Below are positions 18,751-52,870 of a stretch of 52,870 nucleotides of DNA, piece by piece (position 1 is the first letter of the stretch; each line of letters starts with the position of its first letter). The position numbers and the translations under genes were made by a program. Below the pieces are notes generated by a model. It saw nothing but the letters and a program-made list of their open reading frames with translations. It ran no database searches and had not been told where the DNA came from. Source of the stretch: Alphaproteobacteria bacterium (GTDB taxonomy: Bacteria > Pseudomonadota > Alphaproteobacteria > CAAGCB01 > CAG-977); NCBI GenBank assembly GCA_024413465.1, contig JAKSVU010000011.1, forward strand, positions 1 to 52,870. Reading direction: 5' to 3'.

Positions 18751-20379
18751 TTATTCAATCCATTCCTTGATAGGAGCACATATGATTCCAACTAACTTTT
18801 CGATTAAACCTGGAACGTCCGGATTGTAATTTTTCTTGGAAAAATCTATAATATCCATTCCCTTATGATCACGATAATCCAATCTTGCGCCACCCCTTAC
18901 AAGACGGCGAACAACGTCTGGATTTGGATTCATTGCTGCTGCAAACATCAAAGGAGTTCTGCCATCGGTAAAGGTTTGATTTACCTCTGCTCCATTTTCT
19001 ATCAAGATATCAATAATTTTAGGATTTGGATTCAAGCTAGCAGCATACATCAAAGCGCAATACCCATTACTACTTTTGAAATTAACTTTAGCACCAGCTT
19101 TCAACAATTCAACAATAACTTGTTCATCTGTATTTCCCATTGCAGCATACATCAATGGAGTTAATCCATTATCATCAACTTTATTCAAATCTTGCTGATC
19201 AAAAACCATTTTTTGAATTTCTTCTTTAGTCGTAAAAGCATATTTGAATTTTAATTTTCTGTTTTCTAAATTTAACAAATCAATAATGGGCTGACTTTGA
19301 CAAAGCCGAACAGCTAAGCGATAAGCTGTTACTCCATGAGATTCTGTTAAATCCTTTCTAGCTCCACAACGAATAAGACGTTTGATAATCTCTGGATTTT
19401 TATTATTAATTGCTGCACACATTAATGCTGTAAAACCATGATTATCTTGAGCATTTACATCTGCTCCTGCATCAACTAAGACTTGGATAATTTCTGGATT
19501 TGGATTTGAAAAAGCTGCTCCCATTAAAGCCGTTGATCCATTTGACAGTTTCTGTGCCGGATTAAATCCTGCTGAAATTAAGGCTTTTATAATGTAGGGA
19601 TTTTTATTTACCTTGCAAGTATACATCAAAGCATCTTCACCTTCAGCATTTTTTACATCCAAATGAATATTTGCATTGATGAGTGTATTTAAGATGTGGG
19701 CATCAATTTCATCGCCACTAATCCTTGTCGTCAAGAAATTATATAATGGTGAATTTTTTTTGTTATCAAGAGATTCTATATTTGCCTTGTTGTTAATAAG
19801 TATTCTAATGATATATGGATTTGTATTATTTAAAACAGCATAATGGAAAGCTGTTCTACCATCCTTATCTTTTTCTTCTAACTTAGCTTTATTCTTGAGT
19901 AGTATTTCAATAACATCTTCATTGACGTTACTCTTAGCCGCACACATCAATGGGGTCATACCATCTTTATCAGTAAAATTAACGTTTGATTTTGATAAAA
20001 TCAGTTCTTCTATCACGTCTGCATGAATGTTTTTTTTGCAAGCGTACATTAACGGTGTCCATCCATAACGATCCGTATGTTTGACGTCAGCTCCTGCTTT
20101 TACTAATGCTTTAATAATATCTGAATTTTTTGTATGATAGGCAGCGTAAGTTAAAGCTGTCCATCCTTCGGAAGTTTCAGCCTTAACACTTGCCCCTGCT
20201 TTTAATAACATTTTTACGACACGCAAATCATTTGATTTTCTAACAGCCAACATCAACGGAGTTATACCAGAAACATCTGAAACGTTTACGTTTGGTTTCA
20301 TATCCAACAAAACAGATAAGGCCGCATAAAGACCTTCAGATGCATAATCTATGATCAATAATGAATTCTTTAAATCCAT
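18751..20379 (-). CDS. Ankyrin-repeat protein
   Basis: The 542-residue protein is almost entirely ankyrin repeats, about 13-14 of them, many with the core G.TALM.AA..N.NPEII..L..AGA. The period is often 34 residues rather than the usual 33, through an added residue in the NPNP loop. One divergent stretch near residues 360-400 splits the array in two. There is no signal peptide or enzyme domain. Ankyrin proteins mediate protein binding and are common in host-associated alphaproteobacteria, where some are secreted effectors; that role is only a possibility here. It lies 11 bp after the FliX-like gene, likely in one transcript. Confidence 0.88.
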   Translation of the reverse strand: MDLKNSLLIIDYASEGLYAALSVLLDMKPNVNVSDVSGITPLMLAVRKSNDLRVVKMLLKAGASVKAETSEGWTALTYAAYHTKNSDIIKALVKAGADVKHTDRYGWTPLMYACKKNIHADVIEELILSKSNVNFTDKDGMTPLMCAAKSNVNEDVIEILLKNKAKLEEKDKDGRTAFHYAVLNNTNPYIIRILINNKANIESLDNKKNSPLYNFLTTRISGDEIDAHILNTLINANIHLDVKNAEGEDALMYTCKVNKNPYIIKALISAGFNPAQKLSNGSTALMGAAFSNPNPEIIQVLVDAGADVNAQDNHGFTALMCAAINNKNPEIIKRLIRCGARKDLTESHGVTAYRLAVRLCQSQPIIDLLNLENRKLKFKYAFTTKEEIQKMVFDQQDLNKVDDNGLTPLMYAAMGNTDEQVIVELLKAGAKVNFKSSNGYCALMYAASLNPNPKIIDILIENGAEVNQTFTDGRTPLMFAAAMNPNPDVVRRLVRGGARLDYRDHKGMDIIDFSKKNYNPDVPGLIEKLVGIICAPIKEWIE

Positions 20380-20390
20380 GTAAAGAACCT

Positions 20391-20834
20391 CTATACCATC
20401 AATTTGGCAAGTTCAACGTCTGCTCTTAATTGAATTTCATCTAAAATGTCTTTTAATTCAGAATCAAGACCTTCTTCTCGAGTTTGTTTTAATAAATTAG
20501 ATAATTCCAACAGTTTTTGTTTTGAAATGCGACCAGACAAAATAGCCAATCTTAAATCCTCTAATTTATCCAAAATATCATTCCCATGTTGGACTGCTCT
20601 TTTTTTACGTTGTTTAGCCAAATCAGCTTCATCAACGAATTGAGCAGCAAGAATAGCATCCACAGAAAGTACACCACTCATTGCTGAAACCCCTGCAGAA
20701 GATGCTGTTTCTGAGACATTACTCAACAATGAAGAAAATTCTGCAGCTTGTGCAGAAGAAACACCACCTGTTTTTCCAACAGACCCCGTACTAGACACTG
20801 ATGAAGATGAACTGACTTTACTTACAGAAGCCAT
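20391..20834 (-). CDS. fliX: FliX-like flagellar assembly regulator
   Basis: The 147-residue protein has a serine-rich, low-complexity N-terminus (residues 1-50) and a C-terminal region (HGNDILDKLEDLRLAILSGRISKQKLLEL... LKDILDEIQLRADVELAKL) that matches alphaproteobacterial FliX. In Caulobacter FliX links flagellar assembly to FlbD-dependent transcription. No other flagellar gene is in the window, so motility or a reused role cannot be decided. It sits between a STAS-domain gene (11 bp) and the ankyrin gene (11 bp). Confidence 0.75.
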   Translation of the reverse strand: MASVSKVSSSSSVSSTGSVGKTGGVSSAQAAEFSSLLSNVSETASSAGVSAMSGVLSVDAILAAQFVDEADLAKQRKKRAVQHGNDILDKLEDLRLAILSGRISKQKLLELSNLLKQTREEGLDSELKDILDEIQLRADVELAKLMV

Positions 20835-20845
20835 TTTTATTTTCC

Positions 20846-21148
20846 TTAATCAATCATTTCAATGAATGCAGAAATGCCAGTCATATCCAAAACGTTTTGA
20901 ACAACGTCATTTGCATGATAGATGGTCAATTTTCCATTACTTGCCACTAATTTATTTTTTGTTGATAACAACACACGAATTCCAGCAGATGCCATATAAT
21001 CTACACCTGCAAAATCCAAAATAACATGTGTTGTTGTTTTTAACAATTCCGTAATTTCATGATCTAAGGATGCTACCTCAGATGAAACAAGATTGCCTGT
21101 TAATTTTAAAGCAGTTTCACCATTTACCTTAATTTTTTTAATTTCCAT
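20846..21148 (-). CDS. STAS-domain protein (anti-sigma factor antagonist-like)
   Basis: The 100-residue protein is a single STAS domain. The segment VILDFAGVDYMASAGIRVLLSTKNKL carries the conserved serine (YMASAG) that is phosphorylated in SpoIIAA-type antagonists. Such proteins act in partner-switching cascades with an anti-sigma kinase, none of which is seen here. It is the first gene of the STAS-FliX-ankyrin set, with close spacing throughout. Confidence 0.8.
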   Translation of the reverse strand: MEIKKIKVNGETALKLTGNLVSSEVASLDHEITELLKTTTHVILDFAGVDYMASAGIRVLLSTKNKLVASNGKLTIYHANDVVQNVLDMTGISAFIEMID

Positions 21149-21308
21149 AGGGGCCTCATAAAAAAGGGAAATACGTTTGGAGCATAATACTAAATCCTTA
21201 ATATATCGTCAACATCGTTTTATTTAAAGCCGAATTTAAAAGAAAAAACTTGCAATATTCGCCCCTTTCATCTAAAAAAATTAGGTAAAATTTTTAGGTA
21301 AATTAGCA

Positions 21309-22586
21309 ATGAATACAACCGATCTCCAACCAAAATTAGCCACCTCCTTTACTATCAATTTTATTGCAATGATCATTGGAATAACGGCTCTTATAATTGC
21401 AAGATTATGCGATTATCATAATTACACAAATCTATTTATTTTGTACGCAATCATTATCACTGTTGCTACAGCCATCATGGAATATTTTTCAAAAAAAATA
21501 TCTACCCCTTTAAAAACTTGGCACATTCAACGAAAATTCAGCTGGATAAGAATACTCTATAAAGAAGTTACTTTACTTTTTACTTTTGGATGTATCGGCT
21601 TAATTTACTTTTTATTTTTTATGTTCAATTCCGGTGATTTTGTTCTCAACTTTTTTCCTTTTTTAAAAATAATCCTCCCTTATATTTGCTTAGGAAGTAT
21701 CCCTTATTTCATTTTAATGGACAAAATCGAAGATGAACCACATGATATTTATTACAAAATAGGATATTCCATTTTACATTTCAAAAAAATGACTACAAAA
21801 TTTGAACTTGGTAATTACGCTAGAAGTTGGCTAGTCAAAGCATTTTGGTTAGGATTAATGGAAAGTGGGATGATTTACAAAATTCAATGGTTAATTACCT
21901 ATGATTGGAATATAATGAAAGGTCAACCCATTGAATGGTTTTGGACAGCAAACGTTATTTGCTTTTTTATTGATTTGACATATGCTTCCCTCGGCTATTT
22001 AATGAATTTTAAACTCATCGGAACTGATACAAAAACAGCAGAACCTACATTTTTAGGATGGACTGTTGCGATTATCTGTTATTGGCCTTTTTGGGGAGTA
22101 TTATTCTATCCATATTTTTTCAATTACAATGCGAACCAAACGTGGTTATCAGTTTTTGAAACAAGTTCATTTGGATGGTGGTTTTGGTTCATCGCAATCA
22201 TTGGCTTAGAATTGATATATTCTCTTGCAACAGTTGCTGCTGGTATTCGTTTTTCAAACTTAACTTATCGTGGCTTGTGGAAGACCGGTCCATATCGTTG
22301 GACAAAACATCCTGCTTACGTGATGAAAAATATCAGTTGGTGGTTAATTTCTATGCCCTTTATGGCTGCTGGGTTAGAAGAAGCAATCCGAACAAGTCTT
22401 TTATTATTCGGCGTAAATATAATCTATTATTTACGTGCAAAAACAGAAGAACGCCATTTATCGCATTATCCTGAATATGTTGCTTATGCCCTTGAAATGA
22501 ATGAAAAAAGTATATTCAGAGGAATTGCAAAATTATTGCCATTTTTGAAATATCGTCCGCTTACAGAAAAAGAAAAACTCTTTTAA
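21309..22586 (+). CDS. Membrane protein with C-terminal ICMT/PEMT-like methyltransferase region
   Basis: The 425-residue integral membrane protein has about nine or ten hydrophobic segments. The C-terminal 100 residues hold the isoprenylcysteine/phospholipid methyltransferase signature: GPYRWTKHPAYVMKN followed by RAKTEERHLSHYPEYVAY. These residues bind S-adenosylmethionine in ICMT relatives, so it is probably a membrane-embedded methyltransferase acting on a lipid or similar substrate. A terminator follows. Its last 632 bp plus the terminator recur without change at 28364-29064. The usual neighbour would be tRNA-Pro, now separated by the island. Confidence 0.75.
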   Translation: MNTTDLQPKLATSFTINFIAMIIGITALIIARLCDYHNYTNLFILYAIIITVATAIMEYFSKKISTPLKTWHIQRKFSWIRILYKEVTLLFTFGCIGLIYFLFFMFNSGDFVLNFFPFLKIILPYICLGSIPYFILMDKIEDEPHDIYYKIGYSILHFKKMTTKFELGNYARSWLVKAFWLGLMESGMIYKIQWLITYDWNIMKGQPIEWFWTANVICFFIDLTYASLGYLMNFKLIGTDTKTAEPTFLGWTVAIICYWPFWGVLFYPYFFNYNANQTWLSVFETSSFGWWFWFIAIIGLELIYSLATVAAGIRFSNLTYRGLWKTGPYRWTKHPAYVMKNISWWLISMPFMAAGLEEAIRTSLLLFGVNIIYYLRAKTEERHLSHYPEYVAYALEMNEKSIFRGIAKLLPFLKYRPLTEKEKLF

Positions 22587-22655
22587 TTAAATCTTCTGTA
22601 AAACAATACCACAAAAAAATACTCACTTTTTACAGTGAGTATTCTTAATTGGTCG
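21955..22655 (+). repeat. 701-bp direct repeat, left copy
   Basis: This segment is identical, as far as I can read, to 28364-29064 (offset 6409). It covers the 3' part of the ICMT-like gene, its terminator and the last six bases of the tRNA-Pro gene (22650-22655). Just outside the left edge both copies share GACAGCAAA, separated from the repeat by CG here and GC in the right copy. Confidence 0.95.
22618..22643 (+). terminator. Terminator after the ICMT-like gene
   Basis: A ten-base stem (AATACTCACT/AGTGAGTATT) with a six-base loop. The same structure is repeated at 29027-29052. Confidence 0.75.
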
Positions 22656-23066
22656 TCCTCACTCGATATAATTAGAACATTTACCGATGACGATATAATA
22701 GCTATTGAAGCCAGTAAAGATGCTTATTACAGGGCTTTGCGCGCTACGCAAAAGACAATATGGAGCGATAAAGTAAATTATGAGCCGTGGCTGACATTTT
22801 TTATTACCTCGCTTGCTAAGCAAAAACGGCATTTAGAAGATAAAATTGCTTTTGCCGTTAAAGCAGACGCAACCCGAATTACTAAGGGCGAGCAAGCCGT
22901 TTTAGACCTATTTGAAGAAAAAACAAATTGGTCGGTGGCAGAAATGGCGGAAACGTTAAGCAAAAACAGTGAGACAGTTAAAAAAACGGTGCAAAATTTA
23001 GTAAAGAAAAATATGCTTGAAAAACAAGGCTCCACCAAAGGTACATATTATATTTTGAAGGGATAA
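22656..23066 (+). pseudogene. C-terminal fragment of a Fic-family protein
   Basis: The reading frame encodes the tail of a Fic (AMP-transferase fold) protein: DAYYRALRATQ and YEPWLTFFITSLAKQKRHLEDKI are typical of the region after the Fic core, followed by a winged-helix segment (WSVAEMAETLSKNSETVKKTVQNLVKKNMLEKQG). The catalytic HPFxxGNGR motif is absent. The gene is cut at the repeat junction at 22656, and the frame opens only through bases of the repeat, so the product is not a working Fic enzyme. A terminator follows. Confidence 0.75.
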
Positions 23067-23086
23067 AGCCTCACAAATTGAATTTT

Positions 23087-23119
23087 GGCTTCATGACCTA
23101 AAGCATGGAGCCTTTTTTT
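23087..23119 (+). terminator. Terminator after the Fic fragment
   Basis: A nine-base stem GGCTTCATG/CATGGAGCC (one G-U pair) is followed by a run of seven T. Confidence 0.85.
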
Positions 23120-23216
23120 ATTTTGAAAAAAACGCTCTTGTCAATAATTAAGGAATCATATTGCCATATAATAGAATTAGAGTAAACTAGTTATAGTAAT
23201 ATCATGGAGAATCAAT

Positions 23217-23930
23217 ATGACACCAGAAGAAAAGCAACATATCTTACAAAAAGCAAAACAATTTTTTAAGGATAAAATTGTTGAAAATCATAAAAAGCAG
23301 ACAGAAAAAGCCAAACATTTAAAAGAATTTAATCCCAATCCGTTTTTACAAAAATACTTAGCTAATTTCGCATTTGGAAATTGCGACAGCAAATGTATTG
23401 CCAAGGCTCTTGTTTATCCTCGTGTTTTAGGAACATCAATAAATACAATTTTTGGCACTCAGATGCAATCATTTTGCAAGGATGTATTAAACGGCTTTGC
23501 TTCGACTACGTCTGGTATTGATATTGAGTTTAAGGATCAAGTTGATGGTCGCCATAAATATTGTCAAATCAAAGCTGGACCAAATACCATAAACAAAGAT
23601 GATATTACAACCATATTAAACCACTTCCAAGCAATCAGAAATTTGGCTCGAACAAATGGTTTAAAAGATTTCAACCCAGATATTGATTGCGTGGTTGGTG
23701 TTTTTTATGGCTGCAATGACGATTTATCGACAATGTATAAAACTATTAACAAGTCCCATCCTGTTTTTGCAGGTAAAGAATTTTGGTATAGACTGACTGG
23801 TGATGAAGATTTTTATGAAGCATTAATTGATAATATCGCAGAAGTTGCAAATGAGATTGACGGTACTGCTATTATTGAAGATGTAGTTAATAGTTTAGCA
23901 AAAGAAATTGAAGAAAAATCAAATAATTAA
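23217..23930 (+). CDS. Type II restriction endonuclease, EcoO109I/PmeII-like
   Basis: The 237-residue protein resembles the EcoO109I-type restriction enzymes, which cut RGGNCCY-like sites. The candidate PD-(D/E)xK centre is GID (Asp102), then YCQIKAGP (Gln117, Lys119); Q replaces the usual E, as in some family members. The segment GTQMQSFCKDVLNG precedes it. A GGAG SD lies 8 bases before the ATG. A terminator follows, then the cognate-looking methyltransferase on the same strand. The recognition site cannot be read from sequence; GGNCC-type is a guess from the family. Confidence 0.7.
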   Translation: MTPEEKQHILQKAKQFFKDKIVENHKKQTEKAKHLKEFNPNPFLQKYLANFAFGNCDSKCIAKALVYPRVLGTSINTIFGTQMQSFCKDVLNGFASTTSGIDIEFKDQVDGRHKYCQIKAGPNTINKDDITTILNHFQAIRNLARTNGLKDFNPDIDCVVGVFYGCNDDLSTMYKTINKSHPVFAGKEFWYRLTGDEDFYEALIDNIAEVANEIDGTAIIEDVVNSLAKEIEEKSNN

Positions 23931-23952
23931 TAAAAATCATCTCAAATATGAA

Positions 23953-23984
23953 AAATAACCCTTGCATATATGCAGGGGTTATTT
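23953..23984 (+). terminator. Terminator between restriction enzyme and methyltransferase genes
   Basis: A long stem (AATAACCC.TGCA/TGCA.GGGTTATT, with one T-G pair) has a four-base loop and a following T-rich stretch. It would separate the two transcripts and allow independent control. Confidence 0.8.
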
Positions 23985-24018
23985 TATATTGTATTCAGTT
24001 AACAAGGGAGATTTGATT

Positions 24019-25251
24019 ATGTGGCTATCTATTCACGAAGTAAGTGAAAAACTAAATTTATCCATTGATACAATAAGACGCTGGGAAAAAAAAGGGTTAA
24101 TCAAAGCTGAGCGTTCTGATAAAAATCATCGTATGTTTAATGATGATGAAGTTTTTGCTTTGTTGGATAAGTTAAATAATAAGTCAGAAGAAGAATTTAA
24201 GGTATTAAAATCAGAAATTAAATCTCCTTATACTGCAATAGAATTATTTGCAGGAGCTGGGGGAACTGCTTTAGGTTTTGAAAATGCAGGTATTCAACAC
24301 ATTTTATTAAATGAAATAGATAAAGATTGTGTTGCAACGTTGCAACATAATTTTCCTAAAGGAACAAATATTATCCATGCAGATGTTCACAATGTAGATT
24401 TTTCTCAATGGAAAGACAAAGTTGATATAGTTCAAGCCGGTTTCCCTTGTCAGGCATTTAGTTATGCTGGAAAAAGTATGGGATTTGAGGATACCAGAGG
24501 AACATTGTTTTTTGAATTTGCTCGCTGTGTTAAAGAAACAATGCCTAAGATTGCGGTTGGTGAAAATGTCAAAGGATTGTTAAAGCACGATAATGGTAGA
24601 ACCTTGAAAACGATGATTAATGCCTTGAAAGAAATTGGCTATAAGGTGCAGTATAAAGTTTTAAGAGCACAATATTTAGATGTGCCACAAAAAAGAGAAA
24701 GGCTCATAATTATTGCGATTCGTAATGATTTGAACATTCCTTTTATCTTTCCTACAGAGAAAAATTATACAGTTTCGCTAAGAGCTGCGTTAAAAGATTG
24801 TCCTAAATCAGAAGGTCAAAGCTATCCTAAACGCAAAGCCGAAATATTGTCATTAGTTCCTGAGGGTGGTTATTGGCGAGATTTACCGATTGATATACAA
24901 AAAGAATATATGAAAGGAAGTTTTCATTTATCTGGTGGTAAAACTGGTATGGCCAGACGTTTATCGTGGGATGAACCAAGTTTGACGCTAACTTGTGCTC
25001 CAGCTCAAAAACAAACAGAGCGTTGTCACCCAAGTGAAACAAGACCATTAACAGTGAGAGAATATGCAAGAATCCAGTCATTTCCCGATAATTGGAAATT
25101 TCAAGGCACTATGTCAGCACAATACAAACAAATTGGTAATGCCGTTCCTGTCAATTTGAGCTATCATATTGGTTGTTGTTTGGTTGAAATGTTGGACTGC
25201 CTAAGTAATGGCTCAACAGAAGAACAATCATTCAAAATGGCAGCAGAATAA
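24019..25251 (+). CDS. MerR-HTH / C5-cytosine DNA methyltransferase fusion
   Basis: The 410-residue protein starts with a MerR-type helix-turn-helix (residues 1-50: LSIHEVSEKLNLSIDTIRRWEKKG), then a full cytosine-5 methyltransferase: motif I AIELFAGAGG (73-82), motif IV with catalytic Cys144 in GFPCQAF, motif VI GENVKG (181-186), motif VIII QKRERL, motif IX RPLTVREYARIQSFP and motif X QIGNAVP. It should protect DNA from the neighbouring nuclease. The HTH suggests it also controls transcription of the system. The start at 24019 follows AAGGGAG; a longer frame from 23962 would read through the terminator. The methyltransferase and nuclease families fit each other (GGNCC-type). Confidence 0.92.
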   Translation: MWLSIHEVSEKLNLSIDTIRRWEKKGLIKAERSDKNHRMFNDDEVFALLDKLNNKSEEEFKVLKSEIKSPYTAIELFAGAGGTALGFENAGIQHILLNEIDKDCVATLQHNFPKGTNIIHADVHNVDFSQWKDKVDIVQAGFPCQAFSYAGKSMGFEDTRGTLFFEFARCVKETMPKIAVGENVKGLLKHDNGRTLKTMINALKEIGYKVQYKVLRAQYLDVPQKRERLIIIAIRNDLNIPFIFPTEKNYTVSLRAALKDCPKSEGQSYPKRKAEILSLVPEGGYWRDLPIDIQKEYMKGSFHLSGGKTGMARRLSWDEPSLTLTCAPAQKQTERCHPSETRPLTVREYARIQSFPDNWKFQGTMSAQYKQIGNAVPVNLSYHIGCCLVEMLDCLSNGSTEEQSFKMAAE

Positions 25252-25348
25252 TTTACTTTTTAAAATATTGTTGATAAAATAAAATATACTTGACTTTTTT
25301 TAAAATTAGCATAATCTAACCTCATCATTAATAATTAAAGAGGTAAAA

Positions 25349-25966
25349 ATGACTGAACAATTTGATTATAGCAAAAAGCCTTGGGAATTAAATCAAGACC
25401 TAACTGAAGGAATATTAAATGCAATAGCGAAAGTAATTGAGCAGAAAACAAAAGAATGTTTAGAGGAGCGTTTTGATACATCTCGTGGAGATTCGCATTA
25501 TTCATATGGGCATACTGCAAGAGCTTGGCGTATATTTGGACTTCGTGAGCTCATAGCGTCACAAATTTTTCCTAATATAAAAATTTTGAAAGATAAAGGT
25601 AACTCTTTTGAGTTTGCAATAGGCAAAACTCTTATGAAAATATATAGTGGTATACCAGAAGAAATGACTGCTAATATGAAAAAACTTTCTCCGTATGAGG
25701 CTGGACAATATAGCCTAAAATTGGAAGGTTCTGATAATGATGAAATATATTGGCGCATAATGATTAACTCCGCTCCTACTACACACGATCTTTTAAATAT
25801 TTCATTTACTGGATTTAATAAATACGAGGAATTAGTATGTGTTTATGCACCATTAGAACAGATTCCTGTAATTTACAGTGTTGACAAAGTTGAAAAGGAA
25901 GCTAAAAAGATTCCTGATGCAACATTCTCTCGTAAGAAAACAACCCAGAATTCAGAGGCTATTTAA
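25349..25966 (+). CDS. Unknown protein paired with XRE-ImmA/IrrE
   Basis: I do not recognise this 205-residue soluble protein. It has no signal peptide or membrane segment and contains RGDSHYSYGHTARAWRIFGLRELI and later IYWRIMINS. Its stop codon overlaps the start of the XRE-ImmA/IrrE gene by one base (TAATG), so the two are translationally coupled and probably act together. Small genes of unknown function are often found upstream of such peptidase regulators in defence loci. Codon use matches the other cassette genes (AT-rich, little ACGT). An AGAGG SD precedes the ATG. Confidence 0.7.
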   Translation: MTEQFDYSKKPWELNQDLTEGILNAIAKVIEQKTKECLEERFDTSRGDSHYSYGHTARAWRIFGLRELIASQIFPNIKILKDKGNSFEFAIGKTLMKIYSGIPEEMTANMKKLSPYEAGQYSLKLEGSDNDEIYWRIMINSAPTTHDLLNISFTGFNKYEELVCVYAPLEQIPVIYSVDKVEKEAKKIPDATFSRKKTTQNSEAI

Positions 25967-27108
25967 TGTCAGAAAGCTTTATAGGGGATAGACTAAGGCA
26001 ACTTCGTTTAATTAACGAAAAGTCTTTGCAAGATGTTGGCGAAGCAATCGCCACAACAAAACAGTATATACAACAAATAGAGGCTGGTTTACAAAAACCG
26101 ACAGAGATGACTCAAAGTGCGTTGGCAGACTATTTTGGGGTTTCTAAAAGTTTTTTTACTCAGCAATATAATCATATATATGAGACAGAGTGTAATTTTA
26201 GAAAAGCCAAATCTACTCCTGTTAATGTAAAAGAAAAAGCTCAACAATATGCCTCTTTGCTGGAAGAATATATTAAGTTTTTAGATGAAGACGAATTCGA
26301 TTTACCAATAATATCCTTTTTGAAAGAAGATATTGATTATAAGAATTTATCTGCTTTGAATATAGAGGAACTTGCTGAGAAGTTGAGAAAAGAATGGGGT
26401 TTAGATGTTGAAACTCCAATTGATGATATGACAAAGGCTCTCGAAAATGCTGGTGCTATCGTAACGTATTTTAAGGATTTATCTGATAAAATTGATGCGT
26501 TTTCCATTAGCAGAAATCGTCCATTGGTCATAAGAAATAATGAGAAATATAATGGTTGTAGATTGCGCTTTGATTTAGCGCACGAATGTGGACATTTAGT
26601 TTTGCATAAATGTAGTGATAATGCTGAAGATATAGAACTTAAAGAAGAACAAGCTAATAGATTTGCAAGTGCTTTTTTATTACCAAGAAAGGGATTTTTT
26701 CAAGAATTTTATGGTGTTTTTGCAGGAATGAGTATCAACTGGCGAAAGATGGCTGAATTGAAAAAAAGATGGAAAGTTTCTTTTGCTTCGATGATACATA
26801 GAGCTTACGATTTAAATATTATAGATGCAGTGAGATATCGTAGCGCATATATTTATTTAAGAAAGAGCGGACAATCTAAAACTGAACAAGGTGATGATTA
26901 CATAAATATTGAAACATCTTCATTGCTAGAAAATATGACAAATCACTTAGTTGCAAATGATATTGAAGACTTAGCATCTTTTATCAGAAATAAAGGCTGG
27001 TCGGCGGATTTATTTGCAAAAGTTATGTCTTTTAACGTTGATAAAGTAAAAGAATATATGGGAAAACAAACAAATATTATAAATTTTCAAGATTTTAAAA
27101 TATCATAG
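25966..27108 (+). CDS. XRE-family HTH / ImmA-IrrE metallopeptidase
   Basis: The 380-residue protein has an XRE helix-turn-helix at 6-62 (GDRLRQLRLINEKSLQDVGEAI... QIEAG), then an ImmA/IrrE (DUF955) zinc peptidase with HECGH at 206-210 and a downstream NRFASAFLLP segment that carries the next ligand region. ImmA-type proteins cleave repressors of mobile elements, and related proteins are antitoxin or toxin partners in defence pairs. It overlaps the upstream 205-residue gene by one base. The role in immunity or element control is inferred from context. Confidence 0.88.
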   Translation: MSESFIGDRLRQLRLINEKSLQDVGEAIATTKQYIQQIEAGLQKPTEMTQSALADYFGVSKSFFTQQYNHIYETECNFRKAKSTPVNVKEKAQQYASLLEEYIKFLDEDEFDLPIISFLKEDIDYKNLSALNIEELAEKLRKEWGLDVETPIDDMTKALENAGAIVTYFKDLSDKIDAFSISRNRPLVIRNNEKYNGCRLRFDLAHECGHLVLHKCSDNAEDIELKEEQANRFASAFLLPRKGFFQEFYGVFAGMSINWRKMAELKKRWKVSFASMIHRAYDLNIIDAVRYRSAYIYLRKSGQSKTEQGDDYINIETSSLLENMTNHLVANDIEDLASFIRNKGWSADLFAKVMSFNVDKVKEYMGKQTNIINFQDFKIS

Positions 27109-27264
27109 TTACAAATATTTTTTTTCTTCGCTTGAGTTCTTGTAGGGGCGATATTATAAAATAATAAAAAGGGCAGAAAATGCGAAGAAAGAAGAAGTTT
27201 AACAAATTTTATGAAAGAGTCGGAAGCAATTCCGGCTCTTTCTGTTTTAAACGAAAGGTTCAAT

Positions 27265-27594
27265 ATGGACGATGAAATAAAGAAAATGCGCGAGCTAAAT
27301 GATAATTTACGGCAAAATTTTACCGGCGGTCGGGTTTTAATAACGCGTGGAGTTGCAGAGTTGCCAATTGATAAGCAGCTTAATATTATCGAAAAAGTCA
27401 GAAATTTCAGCAATTTTAATCAGGACAACGACCCAAACGGCGAGCATGACTTCGGTGCTTTTGACGTTGACGGCATAACTTATTTTTGGAAAATTGACTA
27501 TTACGACGTTGAGTATCAATACCTCAGCCTAGACCCGAGCGACGAAACAATCACTAATCGCGTTTTGACGGTTATGCTCGCTGAGGAGTATTAG
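27265..27594 (+). CDS. DUF3768 family protein
   Basis: The protein of about 109 residues matches the alphaproteobacterial DUF3768 family: MRELNDNLRQNFTGGRVLIT, the conserved NDPNGEHDFGAF and YFWKIDYYD, and VLTVMLAEEY at the end. The function is unknown; members are common on plasmids and islands. The start at 27265 has GAAAGG 8 bases upstream; the longer frame from 27211 lacks this. Both Asp-Val junctions use GACGTT, like host genes and unlike the restriction and peptidase genes, so it may have a different origin. Confidence 0.85.
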   Translation: MDDEIKKMRELNDNLRQNFTGGRVLITRGVAELPIDKQLNIIEKVRNFSNFNQDNDPNGEHDFGAFDVDGITYFWKIDYYDVEYQYLSLDPSDETITNRVLTVMLAEEY

Positions 27595-27974
27595 GGAAAA
27601 ATGTTTAAATAATAAAATTATCAAAAACACATCCAAAATGTGAGCAACAATTTTTCCAAAAAACTTTTTAATAAGCAAATTTCCTCTTTAAAATTGCAAA
27701 TATACAAATTCTACCAATGGTGGCTTTTGAAATATAATTCTATTTTTGCACGTTTATATTTTAAAAAGTGGCAAAAATTGTGCAGTAAAATTTGACGATT
27801 ATCATATTATAATAATTTTCGGGGTTTTTAAACGCTTTTACTCTCCTCAAATCACTAAAAACGATTTTCTCCACCTTTTGAATAATTTTGATTCGGAAGC
27901 AGGCGAGAATTTTAAATAAAATTTTCGTCAGCTCCCAATAAATTTTAATTTAAAAAAAATTTAGGAGAATAAAA
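27595..27974. other. AT-rich stretch without a gene
   Basis: These 380 bases between DUF3768 and the next small gene hold no convincing reading frame. They have long A and T runs and several imperfect inverted segments, none of which I can assign. An AGGAG before 27975 serves the downstream gene. Confidence 0.5.
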
Positions 27975-28304
27975 ATGAAGAAAATTAATGAGAAAGTTTG
28001 GCCAACATTGAAAGAAATGAAAGAATGTTGGAAATATAAAGTGATTAAAGGAAAAAAGGGCGAACTTCATCGCTATAATGAAGCAGAATACGCCCTTTAT
28101 CAAATTTCACTTAACCTTTTATTATTGCATGATTTCATGCAGAATTTAGGTATGTATTATAAAGATGAAACCTTTGTTCACTTAGGAGAAAACTTGGCCG
28201 AACTTTATAAATACATAGGTGAGACAAGATGCGATTGCTTTTATGCAGATAGATTCTTGCGGAGCATGGGCTTAGATGATGACTGGGACACCAGGCATAA
28301 GTAA
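27975..28304 (+). CDS. Small hypothetical protein
   Basis: I do not recognise this 109-residue protein. It is charged and probably helical (MKKINEKVWPTLKEMKECWKYK... YALYQISLNLLLLHDFMQNLGMYY) and has CDCF near the C-terminus. A strong AGGAG lies 10 bases upstream. It ends just before the right repeat; a second frame that starts at 28276 overlaps its last codons. Confidence 0.5.
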   Translation: MKKINEKVWPTLKEMKECWKYKVIKGKKGELHRYNEAEYALYQISLNLLLLHDFMQNLGMYYKDETFVHLGENLAELYKYIGETRCDCFYADRFLRSMGLDDDWDTRHK

Positions 28305-28363
28305 TTCTTCAACGGCTATTTTTCTCAAAAAAAGGGAAAATCACCCCAATGAGACAGCAAAGC

Positions 28364-28995
28364 TTATTTGCTTTTTTATTGATTTGACATATGCTTCCCT
28401 CGGCTATTTAATGAATTTTAAACTCATCGGAACTGATACAAAAACAGCAGAACCTACATTTTTAGGATGGACTGTTGCGATTATCTGTTATTGGCCTTTT
28501 TGGGGAGTATTATTCTATCCATATTTTTTCAATTACAATGCGAACCAAACGTGGTTATCAGTTTTTGAAACAAGTTCATTTGGATGGTGGTTTTGGTTCA
28601 TCGCAATCATTGGCTTAGAATTGATATATTCTCTTGCAACAGTTGCTGCTGGTATTCGTTTTTCAAACTTAACTTATCGTGGCTTGTGGAAGACCGGTCC
28701 ATATCGTTGGACAAAACATCCTGCTTACGTGATGAAAAATATCAGTTGGTGGTTAATTTCTATGCCCTTTATGGCTGCTGGGTTAGAAGAAGCAATCCGA
28801 ACAAGTCTTTTATTATTCGGCGTAAATATAATCTATTATTTACGTGCAAAAACAGAAGAACGCCATTTATCGCATTATCCTGAATATGTTGCTTATGCCC
28901 TTGAAATGAATGAAAAAAGTATATTCAGAGGAATTGCAAAATTATTGCCATTTTTGAAATATCGTCCGCTTACAGAAAAAGAAAAACTCTTTTAA
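28364..28995 (+). pseudogene. Duplicated C-terminal part of the ICMT-like gene
   Basis: This copy carries the last roughly 210 codons of the gene at 21309-22586 without visible change. It keeps the signature GPYRWTKHPAYV and EERHLSHYPEYVAY but lacks the first half and its own start. The frame stays open upstream through island sequence to an ATG at 28276, which would give a 239-residue chimera (about 30 new residues first). The upstream bases offer only a weak SD, so I call it a pseudogene. Confidence 0.85.
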
Positions 28996-29026
28996 TTAAA
29001 TCTTCTGTAAAACAATACCACAAAAA

Positions 29027-29052
29027 AATACTCACTTTTTACAGTGAGTATT
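29027..29052 (+). terminator. Terminator (second copy)
   Basis: The AATACTCACT/AGTGAGTATT stem is repeated here, between the truncated ICMT-like copy and tRNA-Pro. In this position it can also end tRNA-Pro transcription from the other strand. Confidence 0.75.
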
Positions 29053-29058
29053 CTTAAT

Positions 29059-29135
29059 TGGTCGGAGCGAGAGGATTTGAACCTCCGACCCCTTGCACCC
29101 CATACAAGTGCGCTACCAGTCTGCGCCACGCTCCG
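29059..29135 (-). tRNA. tRNA-Pro (anticodon GGG)
   Basis: A complete 77-base cloverleaf is seen on the minus strand: acceptor CGGAGCG/CGCTCCG, D arm with GCGC pairs, anticodon loop ATGGGGT giving GGG, T loop TTCAAAT, and an encoded CCA end. It sits downstream of merR and ihfA, the usual alphaproteobacterial order. The right repeat ends in its 3' tip. Confidence 0.95.
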
Positions 29136-29182
29136 ACAAATTTGAAAATCATATAACCTATTCAAAGATTATTTTCAAGTAA

Positions 29183-29635
29183 TTAAGTCACATTTTTCAG
29201 TAAAGCTGAAATTTCTTCCAATTCTGTAATAACACTATCTAATTCTGCAAAATTAGCTGGTTTTTTGGCCTTTTCCGCTTGTTTTTCAGTTGCATTTTGA
29301 CTGACTCGTTCAAAGGTTGCGTTCAAATTTCCTTCTTTCATTAAATTTTGAACACCTTTGATACTATATCCTTCTTGATGCAACAATGTTTTAATTTTTA
29401 TCAATAAATCAACGTCTTCTTGACGATAATAACGACGATCTCCCGCCCTTTTGACTGGAACTAATTCAGGAAACTTTTTTTCCCAAAAGCGCAAAACATG
29501 CTGTTCTAATTCAAGTTCAGTAGCAACTTCAGCAATCGTACGAAACGCACGAGCTGGTTTTTCTTCGAACAAATCATTTGACTCTACGGAAGAAACAGGC
29601 AATTCCTGATCTTCTTGCGCTAATTCACTGACCAT
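29183..29635 (-). CDS. MerR-family transcriptional regulator
   Basis: The 150-residue protein has a MerR helix-turn-helix at about 31-98 ([29 protein letters not shown]... [17 protein letters not shown]) and a short alpha-helical C-terminus without sensor cysteines. In alphaproteobacteria a gene of this type regularly follows ihfA and precedes tRNA-Pro; its role is not well defined. It overlaps ihfA by one base (TAATG). Confidence 0.88.
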
Positions 29636-29931
29636 TACTTATCTTCGTTTAACTCTGCTTTAAACAACAATGATGGTGCAAATGAAACAATTCGGCGAGC
29701 TGATATTTCAGCTTCAACACCTGTTTTTGGATTACGACCAACACGAGGTCTTTTTGATAACAAGTTCATCGTTCCAAAAGAAGAAATTTTAACTATTTCC
29801 CCTCTTTTCAAAGAACAAGTTATCTCATCCAAAACTTGATCCAATAAACGATAGCAATCGCTGTAAGACAAACCTAATTTTTCATAAATTGCTTCAGCAA
29901 TTTCGACACGAGTAATGTTTTTTTCAGCCAT
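29635..29931 (-). CDS. ihfA: Integration host factor subunit alpha
   Basis: IHF alpha pairs with IHF beta to bend DNA in recombination, replication and transcription. The 98-residue protein has the family features: [17 protein letters not shown] at the start, ILDEI-like helix ([23 protein letters not shown]) and the DNA-binding arm [24 protein letters not shown]. It has AGGAGATAAC upstream and is coupled to merR. Confidence 0.92.
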
Positions 29932-30050
29932 GTTATCTCCTTTGCAAAAAGAAAATGTAAATTCATTTTAATAATTTTTTAACATTTTTTCAATCATTTT
30001 TGAAAAAAATCTTAAAAAAATCAAATATAAAGAAGAAATTAAGCCACAAA

Positions 30051-30075
30051 AAAAGGGATTTTTTCAATCCCTTTT
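30051..30075 (-). terminator. Terminator after the 30.1-30.9 kb gene
   Basis: An AAAAGGGATT/AATCCCTTTT stem with a five-base loop directly follows the stop codon of the gene at 30082. Confidence 0.75.
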
Positions 30076-30081
30076 ATTTTA

Positions 30082-30912
30082 TTATTTCATTGGTAATGGT
30101 GTCACTTTATATTGACCTGGAGTCAATTTTTGGGCATCTGTCTGAATTTTTACACCATAACGTTCTTGGGCTTTGCCATTTAAAACTGGTGTCGTTGGTT
30201 GTGTAATTTCAGGTTTTGGCAACACGTATTTCTTTTCTTCGGATGGCAAGGAAGTCTTTGGGAAACGCATTAACATATATCCAGAACCACCGCCATAAGC
30301 AGGCCCAGAAACACCGATTGCATAATTTAAACCAATTTCACCATAATCTAGATTGATGTAATCAACAGAATATACCGTTGAAATTACAGAAGAACCAACC
30401 GTTGTAAATTGACATCTAAAGCCCGTATCATCAATACGCACATCATCTGCATCACGAACAAACAAAGAAGATTGACTTGTTCTACATGCTGGACGAACTG
30501 AATTATAATGTAAATCATAGTCGAAAACGACTTTAATTACTTGTTCTTGTTTTAACAAACGAACGTCAACAATTTTTGCAGAATCTATCGTTGCTGTTGC
30601 AGGAGTTACACCTGCTTTAATCGGGAAATGAATATAATGATCAAAACAAGCATGCGTATTCGGATCTGCTTCACAAACTGAAACTGTTGATTCTAAATTT
30701 GTATCAAACAAATTCAACAATGCATTGTACATAAATTCGCGTGTCATACTGAGATGAGCAGCCCCACATTGTGCAGAACGGCAAACAATCACACTAGATG
30801 ATTGACGAGGTGTAATTACCGTTTTTTGTGCAAAAGGCAAGTACTGACACGACGCAGAAACCGAAGTAATTGCGGCAATAGATAATATTTTTTTTAACAT
30901 TTTTGAGGACAT
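30082..30912 (-). CDS. Exported hypothetical protein
   Basis: I do not recognise this 276-residue protein. It has an N-terminal signal sequence (MLKKILSIAAITSVSASC) that might be a lipobox ending SASC, though the motif is weak. The mature part has several cysteines (CRSAQCGAAH, CEADPNTHACFDH, CRTSQ, FRCQF), which suggests periplasmic disulphides, and a proline-rich C-terminus. The start at 30912 follows GAGG at good distance. A terminator follows, so it is a single gene. Confidence 0.6.
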   Translation of the reverse strand: MSSKMLKKILSIAAITSVSASCQYLPFAQKTVITPRQSSSVIVCRSAQCGAAHLSMTREFMYNALLNLFDTNLESTVSVCEADPNTHACFDHYIHFPIKAGVTPATATIDSAKIVDVRLLKQEQVIKVVFDYDLHYNSVRPACRTSQSSLFVRDADDVRIDDTGFRCQFTTVGSSVISTVYSVDYINLDYGEIGLNYAIGVSGPAYGGGSGYMLMRFPKTSLPSEEKKYVLPKPEITQPTTPVLNGKAQERYGVKIQTDAQKLTPGQYKVTPLPMK

Positions 30913-31043
30913 AGTCCACCTCTTTATAATGAATTCATTTGCTTCATTTTAACCACAAGATATTTAATAAAATCCTAAAAAATGAACAAAAAATTGATTT
31001 ATTTTATTTTTTAAGCTAATATCTTTGTACGAAAGAAGGTTTT

Positions 31044-52655: not shown

Positions 52656-52870
52656 CCATCAATCATTTTTTTTATAATTTTTGAAAATTATTCAAAAAAA
52701 GCATTTCACCTCGCCCTGTAGGGAGATATAAACTTCTTCTTATTATTCCCACATGTTAGGGGAATGAACAAAGTTCATGACGCCGATAGGCGGTCCCGAA
52801 GGGACGAGCGAAGCGAGCAAACAAATTTCTATTTTTCTAACTAATCATCCCCTTCTCAGTTTTTATAGTC
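52656..52870. repeat. Intergenic region with repeat and short hairpins at the right edge
   Basis: No gene is visible. CACCTCGCCCTGTAGGGAGA at 52707-52726 matches the left part of the element at 46107. It is followed by a chain of short hairpins at about 52765-52812 (GAAC-AAA-GTTC, CGCC-GATA-GGCG, GTCCC-GAA-GGGAC) and then AGCGAAGCGAGC. The sequence looks like REP-type intergenic repeats and is cut off by the window edge. Confidence 0.55.

Follow-up and report, generated by a model that had tools for sequence, protein, structure and literature searches.

The window analysed here is one whole contig of 52870 bases (C13) from an alphaproteobacterial genome of 130 contigs (2.03 Mb). In this window, an island of 5708 bp that carries a restriction-modification (R-M) pair and a toxin-antitoxin pair is flanked by two copies of a 701-bp segment of host DNA, with an ICMT-like methyltransferase gene on one side and a tRNA-Pro gene on the other. 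This is a real sequence feature of a known kind, unusually long and clean. We propose that about 5.7 kb of foreign DNA was inserted between ICMT and tRNA-Pro by a one-step template switch that duplicated 701 bp of the target, a reading that we judge about evenly poised between right and wrong. We infer the insertion and its direction from what was observed at the locus, namely the repeat, the genes, the two junctions and the lack of integrase or transposase matches.

Base-by-base extension placed the two copies of the repeat at 21955-22655 and 28364-29064, exact over 701 bp with an offset of 6409. When x-drop extension was used, the repeat lengthened to 712 bp at 99.7% identity, as the 11 bases to its left agree at 9 of 11 positions (GACAGCAAA-CG versus GACAGCAAA-GC). 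The pair is the only exact direct repeat of at least 24 bp detected in the window, and its length is far above chance. A search of all 130 contigs found the segment in these two places only. Each copy holds codons 216-425 of the ICMT-like gene, a hairpin terminator (z-score -4.9) and the final six bases of tRNA-Pro. The first-pass annotation had described perfect 701-bp repeats made of the 3' half of a chromosomal gene, its terminator and six tRNA-Pro bases, and had taken their identity as a sign of recent origin or exchange. The positions were confirmed to the base by extension, and the content by extension, ARAGORN and the hairpin score. Recent origin or exchange was borne out as well. The absence of any difference in 701 bp sets divergence below approximately 0.43% (95%).

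Leftwards, the repeat continues naturally at copy 1, into the intact ICMT-like gene (21309-22586, plus strand, 425 aa; Pfam ICMT PF04140, 6.6e-6), and rightwards it does so at copy 2, into the body of the tRNA. The tRNA-Pro (GGG) gene, detected by ARAGORN at 29059-29135 on the minus strand, is intact, and copy 2 reaches precisely six bases into its 3' tip. In copy 2, by comparison, the truncated ICMT copy is joined to island sequence within an open reading frame (ORF) at 28276-28995. Residues 11-425 of the ICMT-like protein align with a homologue from one relative (G003) at 61% identity, and the alignment is uninterrupted across codon 216. Given this alignment and the whole tRNA gene next to copy 2, the ancestral order was ICMT-segment-tRNA-Pro, and for the same reason no host sequence was lost.

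Both junctions look like marks of illegitimate joining rather than of an element with set ends. At the island/copy 2 junction (28353-28363, GACAGCAAAGC), 9 of 11 bases match the chromosome at 21944-21954, the matching bases forming a 9-bp microhomology (GACAGCAAA) near the left end of the repeat. At a random pair of sites, a match of 9 bp would arise by chance with probability 1.8e-5, and agreement in 9 or more of 11 positions with probability 4.1e-4. This microhomology favours a join made by template switching. The other junction, between copy 1 and the island, lies about 47 bp before a broken SoFic gene; a left edge beside such a dead remnant is what would be expected of a random fragment rather than of an element with defined ends.

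In the proposed event, a strand copying ICMT as far as the tRNA tip would switch to a foreign fragment during replication or repair, copy this fragment, and then switch back 701 bp upstream via the GACAGCAAA microhomology. The segment would be copied a second time, giving two identical copies in a single step. ICMT and tRNA-Pro would stay intact, and no island recombinase would be required. The copies could afterwards recombine, with deletion or amplification of the island as the outcome. Loss of the island would, however, expose the cell to leftover restriction enzyme and to the toxin RmrT, so that an addiction effect may favour its retention.

The first-pass annotation had suggested a captured circle or a tandem duplication instead. 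Both mechanisms are possible, but the one-step switch is simpler, because either of them presupposes an earlier event with the same odd junctions as its product. Tandem duplications are common in bacteria, and the segment might have been duplicated first, with the island then entering at the joint. No duplication joint is left, however, and the island must have landed exactly there; two coincident events of this kind we consider very unlikely. Alternatively, a circle unable to replicate, comprising the island and one copy of the segment, might have come into the cell or arisen there and then integrated through a single RecA crossover, the reverse of which would release it again. This route yields the same structure with identical repeats, and of the 12 family genomes that were compared (the window's own, which has the gene, and 11 relatives), 11 encode a ComEC-type competence protein. 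PMC3240628 describes linear DNA in E. coli that is circularised by ligation and integrates by single crossing-over. Nevertheless, such a circle must already contain both odd junctions, which leaves its own origin unexplained, and no plasmid or phage record with the island was found. Records of these two kinds match only short stretches, mostly in methyltransferase genes, covering at most 16% of the island in plasmids and at most 3% in phages. We regard integration of a circle as possible, though rather unlikely. A prophage or plasmid origin was also considered and dropped, as searches of viral_contigs with island or ICMT proteins and with the repeat end returned nothing, and plasmid and phage records gave only the short matches just described.

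Several observations weigh against a one-step insertion. Two non-matching bases separate the microhomology from the repeat, and simple annealing leaves these unexplained. No empty allele was seen in a near relative: among the 11 other family genomes, 10 lack ICMT, and the sole relative that has it carries it beside tRNA-His, not tRNA-Pro. The duplication measures 701 bp, as opposed to an order of 100 bp for the target duplications in PMC3874152. We also surveyed 22 loci that contain either a C5 methyltransferase gene or an EcoO109I-like one (the window, L022-L034 and L113-L120) for flanking direct repeats of at least 40 bp; several of the surveyed stretches end at contig ends. The family part of this survey consisted of eight fetched stretches representing ten methyltransferase matches above the cut-off, two matches below it being left out. 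A flanking repeat was found in none of these eight, and the arrangement is therefore not a habit of this lineage.

Insertion of R-M systems with long target duplications was reportedly defined by Nobusato et al. 2000 and Furuta et al. 2010. In PMC3874152, PMC3031569 and PMC1643837, such duplications are long and variable. The locus in the window resembles these cases in that the insert holds an R-M pair, host DNA is directly duplicated on both sides, no mobile-element genes are linked to it among the ORFs tested, and the gene order is otherwise kept. Unlike them, its cargo is composite, with the toxin-antitoxin system RosmerTA and the SoFic remnant. According to PMC3874152, type II R-M systems cause post-segregational killing. 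The R-M complex between direct repeats described in PMC3031569 has the same geometry, and R-M forms so placed are expected to be deleted or to amplify in tandem by unequal crossover; there, the flanks are copies of an insertion sequence (IS), whereas here they are host gene DNA. An IS composite transposon does not fit the window, where the flanking repeats are ICMT-terminator-tRNA DNA and not IS copies. Homology-facilitated illegitimate recombination and merodiploids made by transformation, as presented in PMC3240628 and PMC3784515, are also similar, in that foreign DNA is joined, the host copy is kept and repeats border the incoming DNA, but those cases are laboratory events of other kinds.

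An assembly artefact, named by the first-pass annotation as the main alternative, stands as the chief caveat, for the genome has the look of a short-read assembly. At its end, the window runs into a dispersed repeat of about 180 bp. Imperfect copies of this repeat are numerous, five or more of them lying no further than 300 bp from the start of another contig, and because the repeat stands at contig ends, we take the assembly to be built from short reads. An empty ICMT-tRNA-Pro site alongside a free circle, island-segment units arrayed in tandem, or a mixture of strains might then have been assembled by walking the loop once; as a graph loop looks alike in all of them, loop, circle and array are indistinguishable in such data. 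Every variant still needs both junctions in the reads, however, a pure artefact would need to have created both from nothing, and one shows microhomology. We consider an assembly ambiguity of this kind unlikely.

The dispersed repeat itself lies at the right end of the window (52704-52870). It folds strongly, reaches up to about 180 bp and is partially matched at about 40 other places in the genome, on contigs C109, C76, C42, C50, C87, C43, C46 and others, several of them at contig starts. It looks like a miniature inverted-repeat transposable element or an element of the repetitive extragenic palindromic type.

The 3' ends of tRNA genes are the usual attachment (att) sites of integrative elements, and the end of the repeat lies six bases into tRNA-Pro. 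An element with integrase-made att repeats, whose integrase has since been lost, would have such an end. However, only six tRNA bases are duplicated, the other 695 bp of the repeat being host DNA beyond the tRNA, and no integrase was detected in the island ORFs tested or in relatives, where the test covered 10 genes downstream of tRNA-Pro. A locus from Fictibacillus norfolkensis (L024) offers a comparison: R-M genes of the same type sit there within 10.9 kb of sequence bounded by two tRNA-Arg genes, its repeats are the whole tRNA-Arg genes (86 bp, 92%), and a 338-aa ORF beside one of them reads, by eye only, as a tyrosine recombinase. The island in the window shares with it the R-M cargo, the direct repeats and a tRNA at the edge, but lacks an integrase match, and most of its repeat lies outside the tRNA. 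On these grounds, we rejected an integrase-driven tRNA element as mostly refuted and highly improbable. Since the tRNA-bounded element with the same R-M type looks quite different, the tRNA boundary of the repeat is probably incidental.

The surroundings of tRNA-Pro were also compared within the family. A MerR gene is present in all 12 genomes, and tRNA-Pro adjoins it in 9 of the 11 relatives; in G004, the contig stops there. The gene downstream of tRNA-Pro varies, being an FMN reductase, an acetyltransferase, a protein with metallo-beta-lactamase fold, a peptidase C26 or a phosphofructokinase. With downstream neighbours that differ and no integrase among the 10 genes tested, the idea of tRNA-Pro as an integrase hotspot was dropped. 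Within 20000-31000, we found no further copy of the tRNA 3' end and no inverted repeats of at least 25 bp. By eye, the edge of copy 1 loosely resembles the tRNA T-arm, out of register; we give this unscored resemblance no weight.

The predicted genes make the insert a defence island, with an R-M pair, a toxin-antitoxin pair, a broken SoFic gene, a DUF3768 protein and one further ORF. With the exception of the SoFic remnant, each recognised gene resembles its family along most of its length. From the end of copy 1, approximately 47 bp (22656-22702) have no match elsewhere in the window except two 11-mers. The 3' remnant of SoFic (Fic family) follows at 22703-23066 on the plus strand (PADLOC SoFic 3e-10, profile positions 229-350 of 361), in an ORF (22635-23066) whose GTG start lies inside the repeat. 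Similarity to SoFic begins abruptly at IEASKDAYY, and alignment to the intact SoFic of G002 and of contig C76 of the window's own genome showed that only the C-terminal third is left. The catalytic region with the motif HPFxDGNGR is absent. At another locus (L070, 4061-5642, G002:C11), after an intact SoFic-like gene comes another SoFic 3' end, a decayed one that is closer to the remnant in the window (69%).

All further island genes listed here are on the plus strand. A type II restriction endonuclease of the EcoO109I family (23217-23930, 237 aa; Pfam PF14511, 2.9e-33) has a 91% identical counterpart in the metagenome-assembled genome (MAG) RUG10873 and gave nothing at 0.001 in a search of solved structures. 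It adjoins a C5-cytosine DNA methyltransferase with an N-terminal helix-turn-helix of MerR type (23962-25251, 429 aa; Pfam PF00145, 1.9e-86; MerR, 1.5e-11) and the motifs FAGAGG, GFPCQ, ENV, QKRER and QIGNAVP. An endonuclease of this family next to a C5 methyltransferase places the pair in the EcoO109I type; the same adjacency is seen at L022 and L023. Its recognition site is presumably RGGNCCY, for which the window has five sites, avoidance not being evident. Between the two genes (23945-23990) lies an imperfect palindrome, matched also in L022 and L023, which probably serves the R-M pair as a terminator or control element. The next two genes encode the predicted RosmerTA toxin RmrT (25349-25966, 205 aa; PADLOC 6.4e-15) and its predicted XRE-ImmA/IrrE antitoxin RmrA (25966-27108, 380 aa; PADLOC RmrA 7.5e-90; Pfam Peptidase_M78, 1.7e-15), whose start overlaps the end of RmrT. 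RmrA also matches the spr1629-type antitoxin of NCBIfam at 1.5e-52, under the cut-off of that family. By gene order, with RmrT adjoining the ImmA-domain protein, the pair agrees with the definition of RosmerTA in PMC10440598. Among 385 genomes of the class, RmrT had one weak match outside its own genome. A DUF3768 protein (27211-27594; Pfam PF12599, 5.2e-32) and a 109-aa ORF from the ORF list (27975-28304), without a family in Pfam, NCBIfam, PADLOC or PHROGs, complete the island.

No integrase or transposase family was matched by eight island ORFs in Pfam or by seven in NCBIfam and PHROGs, small minus-strand ORFs lying outside these scans. Weak excisionase and transposase matches map to the MerR-type helix-turn-helix of the methyltransferase. 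The earlier description of the island as free of an integrase thus held for the ORFs tested, but it had overlooked the R-M and toxin-antitoxin cargo, the broken SoFic gene and the 9-bp junction microhomology.

Related R-M pairs were found at other loci, with DNA identities of 86% in MAG RUG10873 (L022) and 75% in L023. These loci belong to other lineages, their MerR being only 42-48% identical; related R-M loci come from Alphaproteobacteria records. Similarity of the R-M DNA starts near the ribosome-binding site and stops near the stop codon (window 23206-25254). In L034 (5536-5840), the start of the endonuclease is fused to the end of the methyltransferase, as a deletion scar of the pair. Since the pair occurs with different neighbours and sharp borders, and L034 has the scar, a compact cassette of about 2 kb moves within the larger island or separately from it. 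The cassette borders bear similar words, GGAGAATCAAT and GCAGAATAATT. In the survey described above, flanking direct repeats were present at 3 of the 22 loci: the window, L024 and L032. In L032 (3946-10700, Weeksellaceae MIP2422), an EcoO109I-like R-M pair and genes that look HipA-like by eye are separated by a dispersed repeat with several copies of up to 237 bp (97%), resembling repeat-bounded modules.

The turnover of defence genes is fast, and frequently no vehicle can be seen. That the long repeats and the double addiction load together form a self-locking defence cassette of variable copy number is a quite doubtful proposition. If it were true, a defence island without a recombinase would enter via host replication errors that leave long repeats; these repeats would allow tandem amplification under phage attack, and RosmerTA together with the R-M pair would punish deletion through them. 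An insertion this fresh, its 701-bp footprints still unaltered, would indicate how defence genes could enter a chromosome without a recombinase of their own, and the footprints make deletion, amplification and addiction directly testable.

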